The position numbers and the translations under genes are program-made. DNA of 64,000 nucleotides, taken from assembly GCF_001570365.1 (NCBI RefSeq), contig NZ_BBYK01000040.1, positions 289,915 to 353,914 on the forward strand, read 5' to 3'. The stretch's first letter is position 1, and each line of letters opens with the position of its first letter. Positions 40,734-43,753 of the stretch are shown here, one piece after another. The notes beneath the pieces are model-generated. The model saw only the letters and a program-made list of their open reading frames with translations. It had not been told where the DNA came from and ran no database searches. This stretch comes from Microtetraspora fusca. GTDB lineage: Bacteria; Actinomycetota; Actinomycetes; Streptosporangiales; Streptosporangiaceae.

Positions 40734-41338
40734 GGCTTCTTCCGCATGCTGATGGCCATCCCGATGCCGATGCCCGCGATGCCGAAGACCACGATCCACA
40801 CCCAGGCCGGGATGGCGCCCTTGCCCGCGTCCGCTTCGGCCTGATCGTCCGCCGCCGGCGTCGCCGCGACCGTGGCCGGCGCGGCGCTCTGCTCAGGGGT
40901 CGGCTGAACACCGGAGGCGGCCGGGGTGGAGGGCGCCGCGGAGGCGGTCGCGTCCTGGTCGGCCGCGGCGGCGGAGCCGGTCACCGTGAACGGGATCTCC
41001 CCCTCGATCGGGTGACCGTCACTGGAGACGACCCGCCAGGCGACGCTGTACTTTCCGGCGGGCAGGGAGCCGGCCACGGCCTGGGTCACCTCCGAGCCGG
41101 AGACGGCCGGACCGCCCGACTCGTACCGTCGGCCGTCCTGGCCGCGTACCAGGACGACCGGGTAGCGGACCGGTTCCGAGAAGGTCAGGCTCACCTTCGT
41201 GAGTTCGTCGACCCGGGCGTTCTCCTTCGGGTCGCTGCTCCTGAGCGAGGTGTGGGCCAGCGCGGGCATGGCGAGAGCCGTACCGAGCAGAAGGGTCGCG
41301 ACGAAGGCGACCACGGCCGCAAGCGGGGATTTTCTCAT
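40730..41338 (-). CDS. copC: CopC-domain copper-binding protein
   Basis: A 202-residue exported protein. The signal peptide ends at ALAHTSL, giving a mature protein that begins at or near His29, the N-terminal Cu(II) ligand of CopC. The beta-barrel domain holds SSDPKENARV, LTFSEPVRYPVV and the second site SSDGHPIEGEIPFTV. A long Ala/Pro/Thr linker leads to a C-terminal membrane helix (IPAWVWIVVFGIAGIGIGM) with a positively charged tail, so it stays membrane-anchored outside the cell. It is the first gene of the copCD operon. Confidence 0.92.
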   Translation of the reverse strand: MRKSPLAAVVAFVATLLLGTALAMPALAHTSLRSSDPKENARVDELTKVSLTFSEPVRYPVVLVRGQDGRRYESGGPAVSGSEVTQAVAGSLPAGKYSVAWRVVSSDGHPIEGEIPFTVTGSAAAADQDATASAAPSTPAASGVQPTPEQSAAPATVAATPAADDQAEADAGKGAIPAWVWIVVFGIAGIGIGMAISMRKKP

Positions 41339-41487
41339 GGCAGCAACAAGGCTACCGACGCATGGGTCCGGTCCTTACCCCGCGTGAGGCACGGAGGCGC
41401 GACGCTTCCGTAACACGATGTGAAGGCCGCCGCAGGGGTCTCGGCGGCCCCACATGTCCGGCTCAACCGGGGCGCTCTCGCGACGCG

Positions 41488-41515
41488 GCCCGCCCGCGGA
41501 AGGACGCGGGCGGGC
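41488..41515 (-). terminator. Hairpin terminator after the XRE-TPR gene
   Basis: An 11-bp perfect stem GCCCGCCCGCG/CGCGGGCGGGC with loop GAAGGA, 16 nt after the stop codon. The 192-bp gap to copC otherwise holds nothing evident. Confidence 0.7.
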
Positions 41516-41530
41516 GCACCCTGACACGAC

Positions 41531-42823
41531 CTACAGGCCGACGCAGGCGAGCGCGCGCTGGTAGGCGACGGTGCTCGCGGAGCGGTCCTCGATGCGCTGG
41601 AACGCCTCGGCGGCCTCCAGCCAGCCCTGCGCGGCAATCCTGATCTTGGGGGAACGCTCCAGCCACTCGCCGGCCGCGGCCAGCTCGGCCGCCGCCTCCT
41701 CGCGCCTGCCGAGCTGCTCGTACGCCTGGCCGAGCACGAGGTGCGCCTCGGCCCGCAGCTCGCCGTGCGGCTCCTCCATCAGGGCCTTGGCGGCGTGGGC
41801 GTGCTCGGCGGCCTCCTCCGGGTGGCCCAGGGCCAGCTCGGTGCGGGCCAGGAAGACCGAGCAGCGGGCGATGTCGGCCCTGCTCGCCGCCGACTCGCCG
41901 AGCTCCCGGCGGGTGCGCGCCATCAGGTCACGGGCCGTCTCCAGGTCGTCCGGGCGGACCCGGAGCAGCAGGATCGCGTACGCGAGGCGGAGCCGGGCGA
42001 GGTTGCGCGAGTCGCCGTTCTCGCTCTGCACGGCCAGGGCGCGCTCGGCCAGCGCGATCGACTCCTCGCCCCGGCCGGTCAGCTCGGCGATCCTGGCGGC
42101 GTTCCAGTTCGTGGCGACCGTCGCGCGCGGCGTGCCGAGCAGGTCGGCGGCGGCGAGCAGCTCGTTCGCGAACTGGCTGGCGCGCAGCAGGTCGCCGCGC
42201 ACGCCGTACGCGGCGAGCAGGGTCGCGGCGAGCTCGATCAGATCGTCGGTCCAGTTGGTCCGGTTCATGTCCTTGAGCATCGTCTCGCCCACTTCGACGG
42301 CCGGCCCGAGGTCACCCTTCTCGCGGTAGCACCGGCACAGGGCGACGGCGATCGCCACCCGGCGGGCCTCCGGCATGGCCCCGGCCTCGGTGTCGAGCAG
42401 GCGGTTCAGGATCGCGATGGCCTCGCCGAGGTGGCCGCACGCCTCGGCGGCGAGCGCGTAGCCGAACTCGGCGTCCTGGTGGAGCTGGGAGAGCCCGACC
42501 AGGCTCCGGTCCGCCAGCAGCTCGCCGAAGCGGCGCCGGGCCTCCTCGACCTCGCCGTTGTCCAGGGCGAGCCGGGCGAAGCGCAGGCCGAGCTCCAACT
42601 CCTCCATCTGCTCGGCGGTCACGCCATTGATCAGATAAGTGAGTGAGCAATCGAGCTTCTGAGCGAGCAGTTCCAAAACGGCCGGAGTGGGCGTCCGCTT
42701 TCCACTCTCGATCAGCGAAACGTAGCTGTCCGAAAGCTCCGGATGTGCCAGTTGCGCTTGAGAAAGACCACGTTGACGACGGATCACCTTGATGCGCTGA
42801 CCGACTAGATCTTGACTCGTCAC
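41531..42823 (-). CDS. XRE-family regulator with C-terminal TPR repeats (RRNPP-like)
   Basis: A 430-residue regulator. The N-terminal XRE helix-turn-helix spans about residues 5-62 (VGQRIKVIRRQRGLSQAQLA, then SDSYVSLIESGKRTPTP). The remaining 360 residues are helical TPR-type repeats (for example EAIAILNRLLDTEAG, LRASQFANELLAAADLL, ESIALAERALAVQ). This is the build of RRNPP proteins, which bind small exported peptides with the TPR part. A 43-residue secreted peptide gene is divergent 55 bp away, with a palindrome between. GTG at 42823 has a GGGGGAG site; TTG at 42838 is an alternative. Peptide binding is inferred. Confidence 0.8.
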   Translation of the reverse strand: MTSQDLVGQRIKVIRRQRGLSQAQLAHPELSDSYVSLIESGKRTPTPAVLELLAQKLDCSLTYLINGVTAEQMEELELGLRFARLALDNGEVEEARRRFGELLADRSLVGLSQLHQDAEFGYALAAEACGHLGEAIAILNRLLDTEAGAMPEARRVAIAVALCRCYREKGDLGPAVEVGETMLKDMNRTNWTDDLIELAATLLAAYGVRGDLLRASQFANELLAAADLLGTPRATVATNWNAARIAELTGRGEESIALAERALAVQSENGDSRNLARLRLAYAILLLRVRPDDLETARDLMARTRRELGESAASRADIARCSVFLARTELALGHPEEAAEHAHAAKALMEEPHGELRAEAHLVLGQAYEQLGRREEAAAELAAAGEWLERSPKIRIAAQGWLEAAEAFQRIEDRSASTVAYQRALACVGL

Positions 42824-42847
42824 GGGCTCCCCCTGCAAGAATGGTGT

Positions 42848-42861
42848 AAATCAGACGATTT
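42848..42861. promoter_or_regulatory. Inverted repeat between XRE-TPR and peptide genes
   Basis: AAATC-AGAC-GATTT, AT-rich, in the middle of the 55-bp divergent region. A natural place for the XRE dimer to bind. Confidence 0.5.
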
Positions 42862-42878
42862 TCCGACAGGAGCTGATC

Positions 42879-43010
42879 ATGCGCCGCCGACTCATCGTCT
42901 CTGTCTTGGCTGTTCTCTTCTCAACCAGTGTGGTTGTTGCGGCAAATGCTACGACTGCCAACGCCGCGACGTCTGCCCCGAAGCACACGCTCAGCGACTG
43001 GTGCTGCTGA
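42879..43010 (+). CDS. 43-residue secreted peptide, candidate signal peptide (pheromone)
   Basis: Too short for usual gene callers, but well formed. AGGAG lies 6 nt before ATG. The product starts MRRRLIVSVLAVLF, a classical Sec signal (three Arg, hydrophobic core, Ala-rich cleavage region with ANA or NAA), and leaves a C-terminal peptide of about 13-14 residues ending SAPKHTLSDWCC. A Trp-Cys-Cys end invites disulfide or other modification. It is divergent from the XRE-TPR regulator. Size, export signal and position match the propeptides that activate RRNPP regulators. That it is a signal is inference; a leader of another peptide type is the main alternative. Confidence 0.6.
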   Translation: MRRRLIVSVLAVLFSTSVVVAANATTANAATSAPKHTLSDWCC

Positions 43011-43078
43011 GTCGTTATCTATCCCTGACCCCATCCGCTTCGAGCCCATCTGTCCCCCAGCGGGCTCATCCCGCCCGC

Positions 43079-43252
43079 GACGCGAGGTAACAGATCCACC
43101 CGGTCCGCCATCGAGGAGGGTCCGCTGAGCTCCTCGATGCGGCGGATCCGACACCGCACTCTGGCTGCGTGAATGTTCACCCGCTCGGCGCACGCGTTCC
43201 ACGAGCGGTCCAAGAAATGCAGAGCGGTTGTAGCAGCTCCCCCTGGTGGCAC
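43079..43252 (-). pseudogene. PucR-family regulator, C-terminal helix-turn-helix remnant
   Basis: The minus strand encodes LHFLDRSWNACAERVNIHAA followed by RIRRIEELSG and MADRVDLL. This is the DNA-binding end of PucR-type regulators, which control purine catabolism. The rest of the protein is absent and the typical V-R-Y-R-I is altered to VRCRI. It lies beside a purine-hydroxylase-type gene, as a functional pucR would. Confidence 0.6.
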
Positions 43253-43753
43253 CGGTCGTAGCCCACCGGCGGGTCGAGCGACCGGCTCCCGAACGACCCG
43301 CGTACGCCGTCCGGCACTTCTGGGTCGTCTACGTCTCGTCGCCGGTGACGTCCCGCCTCCGCGCGACTCCGCCGTCCGCCCGGCGTGCCCGCCCGCGGGC
43401 CGCGGCCGCCGCGGCCCTCCTGTCGAGCAAGTTCCTCCACGCTCCGGCCACTCAGCGTCACCGCCCTGCGAGGGTGAGCCGGCTCTCCTCTACGGCCGGC
43501 AGATCCGGCAGAAGCATGCGGATCCCACTATTTGGGGAGATCTCCACTCGGCATCCCGCGCGCTGGGGGTTGGCCCGGGTGACCGCGCCTGATGTACTGC
43601 GCGTACGACCTCGCCCGGCGGGCGGGAAGCAAGGACGGTTCCCCACTGGGCGCGGCCGGATGCCGTGCCGTGCGGAACCGGCCGAGCGCCGGGACGCCGG
43701 ACGGTGGGCCTCCTGACCCGGAGCCCCGGACGTGCGGAAGTGGGGAGCGAGCA
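43253..43753. other. Gene-poor stretch between PucR remnant and molybdopterin-subunit gene
   Basis: Five hundred bases without a gene I can support on either strand. Given the fragment on one side and an enzyme without its partner subunits on the other, this may be scar sequence from a deletion. Nothing recognisable of the missing [2Fe-2S] or FAD subunit genes was seen. Confidence 0.5.

Follow-up and report, generated by a model that had tools for sequence, protein, structure and literature searches.

RRNPP-type peptide pheromones are described as a signalling system of Firmicutes and of their mobile elements. In the PlcR-PapR pair, the gene encoding the small exported propeptide adjoins that of the receptor, papR being located downstream in the same direction, and NprR is another receptor that combines an HTH and TPRs, with a length similar to that of the regulator studied here. 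Divergent rgg-shp pairs exist, and the peptides of the ComR-XIP and Rgg-SHP systems carry WW or GG motifs. Rap-Phr associates a TPR protein devoid of DNA-binding HTH with an adjacent short exported peptide gene, and the AimR-AimP arbitrium system an HTH-TPR-like receptor with a short exported peptide. Receptors of gamma-butyrolactones are TetR-type proteins. These butyrolactones are used for cell-cell signalling in actinomycetes, and the available part of a review on actinobacterial quorum sensing covers them together with LuxR-type proteins and cyclic or modified peptides and lists TPRs among domains, without describing any TPR-peptide pair (PMC4748050). According to the accessible portion of its publication, RRNPP_detector requires a receptor of 250-500 aa matching TPR models and a propeptide gene (10-100 aa) located at -60 to 400 bp, with a SignalP Sec/SPI prediction at the strict level, and its large scan concerned only Firmicutes and viruses (PMC10075063). 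A search of open-licence PMC full text, preprints excluded, retrieved no report of the system presented here nor of its tail sequences. The similar gene pairs that we found in many Actinobacteria suggest a peptide-signalling system absent from the searched papers.

The window analyzed in this work, a stretch of 64,000 nucleotides from Microtetraspora fusca, carries on its minus strand the gene of an XRE-TPR regulator, the candidate peptide receptor (41531..42823, from a GTG at 42821-42823 to a stop codon at 41531-41533). The preliminary description had read its product as a 430-residue protein with HTH and TPRs, which is confirmed by Pfam: the HTH DNA-binding domain occupies residues about 7-67 (42623..42805, minus strand; HTH_3, 4.8e-11, and HTH_19) and the TPR domain residues about 70-427 (41543..42616, minus strand; TPR_19, 2.2e-8, above its cut-off), this latter assignment being also based on the AF2 model presented below. 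Direct reading of the sequence likewise bears out the small divergent gene that had been proposed at a distance of 55 bp (intergenic region 42824..42878). On the plus strand, an AGGAG Shine-Dalgarno motif (42868..42872) lies six bases before the ATG (42879) of 43 codons ending in SDWCC (42879..43010, stop codon 43008-43010), the product of which is the 43-aa peptide MRRRLIVSVLAVLFSTSVVVAANATTANAATSAPKHTLSDWCC. Codons 1-29 (42879..42965, plus strand) encode a Sec-type leader with an RRR n-region, a hydrophobic core and ANA (an A-x-A motif) before the likely cleavage site, and export is predicted from direct reading and hydropathy only. The segment predicted to be released, ATSAPKHTLSDWCC (42966..43007, plus strand), depends on an inferred cleavage site and ends with the two cysteines encoded by 43002-43007. 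The pair therefore fulfils the RRNPP_detector criteria of size (receptor of 430 aa with TPRs, propeptide of 43 aa at 55 bp); a Shine-Dalgarno motif, as expected of an RRNPP propeptide gene, is present, and the features of a secretion leader are seen, although by hydropathy alone.

Neither the short ORF and its 17 relatives (alignment A2) matched any Pfam or NCBIfam family above noise nor the 17 members of alignment A4 any NCBIfam or PHROGs family, and such peptides are called "hypothetical protein" in the few annotated records examined. A consensus scan of 42700-43250 did not detect any sigma-70-like promoter and no Rfam element reached its gathering score in 41300-43600; one terminator-like hairpin (42989-43012; 0.3 expected) overlaps the last codons of the short gene. 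Beyond it, a fragment resembling by eye the end of a PucR-type regulator is found on the minus strand (43019-43252). Since a long PucR-like ORF is located upstream of the regulator in two related loci, L125 (Pfam PucR) and L189 (by eye), this PucR-type gene looks decayed.

The preliminary description also mentioned an inverted repeat, AAATC-AGAC-GATTT, between the two genes. It is indeed present at 42848-42861, but no weight can be attached to it: it was found in only 5 of 83 intergenic stretches, all from Microtetraspora, and repeats with 5-bp arms are rarer in the real stretches (10/83) than in mononucleotide shuffles (417/1660). As this frequency is below that of shuffles, the repeat provides no evidence of an operator and was rejected as such. 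That the 55-bp divergent region holds the operator of the regulator is an inference.

According to the preliminary description, the lack of a conserved short ORF beside orthologous regulators would have refuted the proposed pairing. From 394 confirmed stretches, the best 80, all titled loci, were retained and examined in full; 79 belong to genera of Streptosporangiaceae and one to an unclassified actinobacterial MAG. Among these best 80 of 394, all 80 carry a divergent Sec-like ORF starting 47-63 bp from the regulator start, 76 have an SD-like motif before it and 71 encode a CC end. By comparison, when applied to 575,577 bp outside these positions, the same kind of filter retained only two Sec-like ORFs with a CC end, one of them an apparent second copy; it retained none in 800 dinucleotide shuffles. 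This apparent copy, in Spongiactinospora (L156), is an extra exported ORF with a CC end, located upstream of the regulator at about 1.8 kb from its start (oriented position 1166). The occurrence of the short ORF is far beyond chance and it is a real coding sequence. A separate search of 60 related genomes identified 18 regulators with at least 45% identity, including that of the window; 16 of them have a divergent short Sec-like CC-ended ORF and the remaining two (L013 and L015) a similar ORF with another end. Nonomuraea gerenzanensis also possesses the gene pair. In four genomes of the genus, the peptide profile gave one strong match per genome (E 1.5e-19 to 7.0e-18), the next-best match being at 0.0136; it should be emphasized that this profile was built from these very peptides among others. 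The conserved (S)DWCC end that had been anticipated holds only in part. The terminal Cys-Cys is conserved, C42 and C43 being the sole invariant columns among the 18 CC-ended peptides of A2, but the preceding residues vary and [SAR]DWCC is the Microtetraspora form, so that (S)DWCC was discarded as a general conserved end.

The other potential refutation, an absence of purifying selection at the protein level, did not materialize either, except over the peptide tail within Microtetraspora. Comparison of five Microtetraspora species gave a dN/dS of 0.46 for the leader, whereas the tail codons (1.13) exhibit no visible purifying selection as a whole; D40-W41-C42-C43 are nevertheless unchanged in all five. 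The peptide of another genus (g81; eight species compared) has a dN/dS of 0.29 overall, with 0.27 for the leader and 0.28 for the tail. The Microtetraspora regulator is more constrained (0.16 overall and 0.02 in the HTH). A variable stretch before a fixed end is as expected of a species-specific signal.

The association extends well beyond the family of the window. The search of 394 genomes of the class with the regulator profile A1 retrieved 94 places at E ≤1e-40 in 67 genomes, 70 of which (L051-L120) were examined; the excluded 24 comprise four partial or contig-edge matches and 20 second copies from the family of the window, six of which were examined separately as paralogues. A CC-ended exported (Sec-like) ORF was found at 51 of the 70 loci, over nine families. 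Three other loci, all from family f27, have a CC within the last eight residues, and seven, all from one clade of the window's family, have a switched tail (such ORFs are present, for example, at L054, identical to L015, and at L055, L058, L063 and L066). No such peptide was found at the nine remaining loci, two of which are on contigs ending early and three of which (L067-L069) belong to the window's own family. The gene arrangement is not constant. In family f28, the CC gene is downstream on the other strand, hence convergent, at 8 of 11 loci (counted from the regulator start, +1474 to +1718 for seven of them and +3086 for the eighth), and on two Streptomyces plasmids (L201 and L240) it is downstream in the same direction (WP_123083198.1 and WP_008741297.1, annotated as hypothetical). 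The pairing of regulator and CC peptide is therefore independent of a shared promoter, and the two genes often stay together despite a changed arrangement. Conversely, paralogues of the same family (about 31-40% identity) have a CC ORF at none of 20 loci, one of which (L035) lacks upstream sequence, and no CC-ended exported ORF was detected at the plasmid loci L202-L205, L239 and L242. Relatives of the regulator were found on only 16 of 72,556 plasmid records (E limit 1e-15) and one of 50,697 phage records (E limit 1e-8); a mobile origin was thus set aside, as these few matches indicate that the regulators are not typical of mobile elements. The phage record (L207, MT836207.1) is an unverified faecal contig named Bacteriophage sp. 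with a related XRE-TPR gene, cut near its end, and no CC-ended ORF was found in the stretch examined.

The non-CC tails found in Streptosporangium, Planomonospora and Planobispora allowed us to compare changes of the peptide with changes of the receptor. Nine of the best 80 of 394 loci have such tails: eight end with W-x-x-P plus one residue (such as GWNHPD, SWSYPD, GWVYPG or PWGYPI) and the ninth (L196) with LGPLNNAE. In a tree of 104 regulators, the 12 non-CC regulators cluster in a single clade that arises within the CC regulators (SH-aLRT 100). They are joined there by one more regulator, encoded by a plasmid of Streptosporangium sp. NBC_01495 (L205, 3977-5263), which has no adjoining peptide gene and is possibly an eavesdropping receptor. 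Counting distinct regulators only (duplicates merged), ten columns have one residue in at least 85% of the 78 CC regulators of the family and in at most 25% of the 12 non-CC ones. Four of these, T201, A237, N241 and N274, also separate the CC regulators of other families from paralogues. N241 is found in 73/78 CC regulators of the family, 40/42 CC regulators of other families (113/120 of all distinct CC receptors), 0/12 non-CC regulators and 1/20 paralogues, and also in 7 of 13 regulators without a found peptide. The corresponding counts are 76/78, 37/42, 2/12 and 1/20 for T201 and 69/78, 32/42, 0/12 and 1/20 for N274; A237 is present in 78/78, 28/42 and 0/12 and is not among the listed paralogue residues. 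Not every switched column points to the peptide, since columns 179, 319 and 364 keep the CC-type residue in paralogues devoid of peptide, and columns 197, 233 and 236 are not common to most CC regulators of other families. In the model, the four residues are located on the first helices of consecutive repeats (193-209, 232-248 and 272-289), and we propose them as contact positions of the CC peptide, although there are no binding data. In our own reading, T201 and N241 occupy position 6 of their repeats and E197 and A237 position 2; the associated hypergeometric P of 0.0008 was computed post hoc on the assumption of 18 such positions in 360 and includes E197, which is not CC-specific. An asparagine on a TPR helix of ComR, N208, makes hydrogen bonds with the peptide backbone, according to the portion of the structural study available (PMC5131891). 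The tail and the TPR residues have been switched only once. Within this limit, the covariation, as far as alignments can tell, backs the inferred return of the peptide and its putative binding to the TPRs.

The regulator itself resembles RRNPP receptors. The best natural HTH and TPR match of profile A1 in the PDB is PlcR (2qfc, E 1.3e-11), the alignment spanning both HTH and TPRs, and NprR matches over the TPRs (5dbk, 1.1e-9; 4gpk, 2.3e-9). However, designed TPR proteins have lower E-values than PlcR over the TPR part, and kinesin-light-chain-like TPRs also match. The AF2 model (mean pLDDT 90.5, pTM 0.83), obtained from an alignment (A3) of the window with 64 loci taken from the named set (best 80 of 394), consists of an HTH followed by 18 helices in a helical-repeat solenoid, which we read, on this predicted structure, as nine TPRs. 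Foldseek ranked the PlcR-PapR7-DNA complex (3u3w) third (E 5.5e-8); the first two ranks are occupied by designed TPR proteins, and eukaryotic TPR proteins follow closely. As to common descent with PlcR and NprR, the match with PlcR spans HTH and TPRs, yet designed TPRs score better on the TPR part. Taken together with the conserved exported ORF and its protein-level constraint, this likeness to PlcR and NprR profiles and to 3u3w supports the RRNPP-type pair put forward initially.

Other peptides accompany more distant receptors. In a phylum-wide sample of 396 genomes, all 12 non-own matches at 1e-35 were examined: seven loci have divergent Sec-like ORFs of 28-30 aa with tails such as GYPWPK, GFPWPK, NWPKH and SFPGP, and five have no such ORF. 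A distant regulator of the 60-genome search (L026, identical to L243; E 1.5e-7) led to 30 loci of family f5, 23 of which have a divergent exported ORF with W-P at its end or in repeats and six of which have none, one further locus (L265) being doubtful. At 17 of these 23 loci the precursor contains two to eight W-P copies (IGNWPDPM x3, VGNWPDP x4, VGNWPDAVAP x5, TGNWPN x4 or VG[DN]WPH x8). Tandem precursors are found beside XRE-TPR genes at L243-L256 and L262, those of L245-L247 being divergent. At eight of the 23 loci (L263, L264 and L267-L272), the alignment with the neighbouring protein is confined to its TPR part; six of these eight proteins were scanned and revealed no HTH family and only TPR-type matches below cut-off, one being without any. 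Given this lack of HTH family, the eight proteins look like Rap-type proteins devoid of a DNA-binding domain. On Streptomyces linear plasmids (L241, L242 and L286), a convergent secreted protein downstream, annotated as hypothetical and encoded near AfsR/SARP regulator genes, contains four, four and two NIGWP-like units, respectively. In family f20 (L277, L278 and L280), secreted ORFs ending with IEWP or IDWP are located upstream on the same strand beside a related XRE-TPR gene. By analogy, repeated units with variable spacers look like a multi-copy pheromone precursor. The receptors associated with W-P peptides are related to that of the window by their architecture and a distant similarity of sequence; we do not claim that they belong to the same clade.

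Overall, we consider that the gene pair is an RRNPP-like peptide-signalling module, consisting of a pheromone and its receptor, outside Firmicutes, with a probability of roughly 0.77. What is established here concerns the existence and conservation of the two genes, the constraint acting on the ORF, an association that persists when the arrangement differs, the similarity of the receptor and the covariation of tail and TPRs; that the peptide is exported, trimmed, taken up again and bound is inferred, as are the target genes and the direction in which they are regulated. In the proposed mechanism, the 43-aa propeptide would be exported by Sec, and signal peptidase would cut it, probably after A29, leaving a peptide of at most some 14 residues with the Cys-Cys at the end. 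The trimmed peptide would re-enter through an oligopeptide (Opp-type) importer; 32 SBP_bac_5 (OppA-like) proteins are encoded in the genome, which means that an import route may exist but no more than that. Its C-terminal end would then bind the TPR domain around T201, A237, N241 and N274 and change the DNA binding of the XRE domain at the 55-bp divergent promoter region, resulting in autoregulation, and the peptide-bound regulator would probably act at other targets too. We also judge it somewhat probable that Actinobacteria have, across the phylum, an RRNPP-like peptide language of their own, to which this pair belongs and in which related TPR receptors recognize two or more types of signal: one with a Cys-Cys end, possibly redox-gated, and one with a W-P core. 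In the redox-gated variant, the two terminal cysteines could form a vicinal disulfide once outside the cell, which would open again after entry. The W-P core, which in some families is encoded in two to eight tandem copies per secreted precursor, like yeast alpha-factor, would have two kinds of partners, namely HTH-TPR regulators and Rap-like TPR proteins devoid of HTH.

The regulator gene is adjoined by genes encoding CopC and CopD/CtaG (Pfam, window) and, on the other side, by a xanthine-dehydrogenase-type gene. A different role can be considered, in which the CC peptide would be an effector and not a signal. Under this view, a metal- or redox-binding peptide of small size is exported, and the XRE-TPR protein does no more than control its gene. 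Copper can be bound by two neighbouring cysteines, the adjoining copC and copD/ctaG suggest this metal, and in the window's family CopC is encoded at 78 of the best 80 of 394 loci and at 16 of 19 additional loci. However, CopC is absent from all 51 loci of other families, although 42 of them have CC-ended peptides. Copper was therefore rejected as a general theme, CopC being tied to the window's family only. The variation of the residues between leader and CC, the replacement of CC by other tails in one clade that keeps leader and regulator, and the convergent arrangements, which poorly fit simple promoter control, also make an effector unlikely. Two distant families have, downstream and convergent with the regulator, a gene encoding an EamA-type transporter (Pfam; L079 in f21 and L116 in f27).

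A peptide that is small, probably exported and variable and whose gene adjoins that of a regulator could also be bacteriocin-like or surface-active, the TPR protein sensing something else. This is hardly compatible with a peptide type that tracks TPR residues, nor with tandem-copy precursors beside more distant receptors; besides, the scanned neighbours vary according to the family (CopC in f1, EamA in f21 and f27, Mntp at one f28 locus), and no maturation or immunity gene was recognized among them, although no systematic search was done. We thus give this explanation very little credence. Only slightly more credible, and still very unlikely, is an action of the peptide on the regulator inside the producer, before or without export, the leader serving for membrane sequestration. 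Sequence cannot distinguish this from a returning signal; a Sec-like leader is found in each family with a CC ORF, which is a weak argument as the leader was a search filter, and tandem-copy precursors would need proteolysis. A secreted pheromone read by the adjacent receptor remains our preferred reading.

The main inference of the preliminary description thus stands and is now broader, as the Cys-Cys end matters, the association is class-wide and distant receptors lie beside W-P peptides; binding and signalling are unshown. If it is true, Actinobacteria, many of which are antibiotic producers, carry a peptide communication layer besides butyrolactones, whose signals can be read from the genome, synthesized and added to cultures, allowing a direct test of their control over development and silent gene clusters. 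To our knowledge, tandem-copy precursors and a Cys-Cys end would be new signal designs, and we know of no RRNPP peptides with ends like Cys-Cys. Compared with known systems, the closest is PlcR-PapR of the Bacillus cereus group, the receptor of which likewise combines an XRE HTH and TPRs and is the best natural profile match; the window pair differs from it by its divergent genes, its Cys-Cys end, its phylum and the length of the regulator (430 aa versus 293 for the PDB chain). NprR-NprX shares the TPR profile match (E 1.1e-9), and in the part of the structural work available the peptide SSKPDIVG has contacts spread from TPR-2 to TPR-7 of NprR (PMC4970707); this Firmicutes peptide differs from that of the window, which has a Cys-Cys end. 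ComR-XIP and Rgg-SHP also use a short exported peptide, and the role of ComR N208 is proposed likewise for N241, but they are systems of streptococci whose motifs are WW or GG instead of CC. Rap-Phr of Firmicutes resembles the f5 loci that associate HTH-less TPR proteins with W-P peptides, whereas the window protein has an HTH. AimR-AimP is a phage lysis-lysogeny switch, whereas relatives of the window regulator occur on a single one of 50,697 phage records, the unverified contig. Finally, gamma-butyrolactone systems rely on small enzyme-made molecules and involve no peptide, unlike the pair described here.
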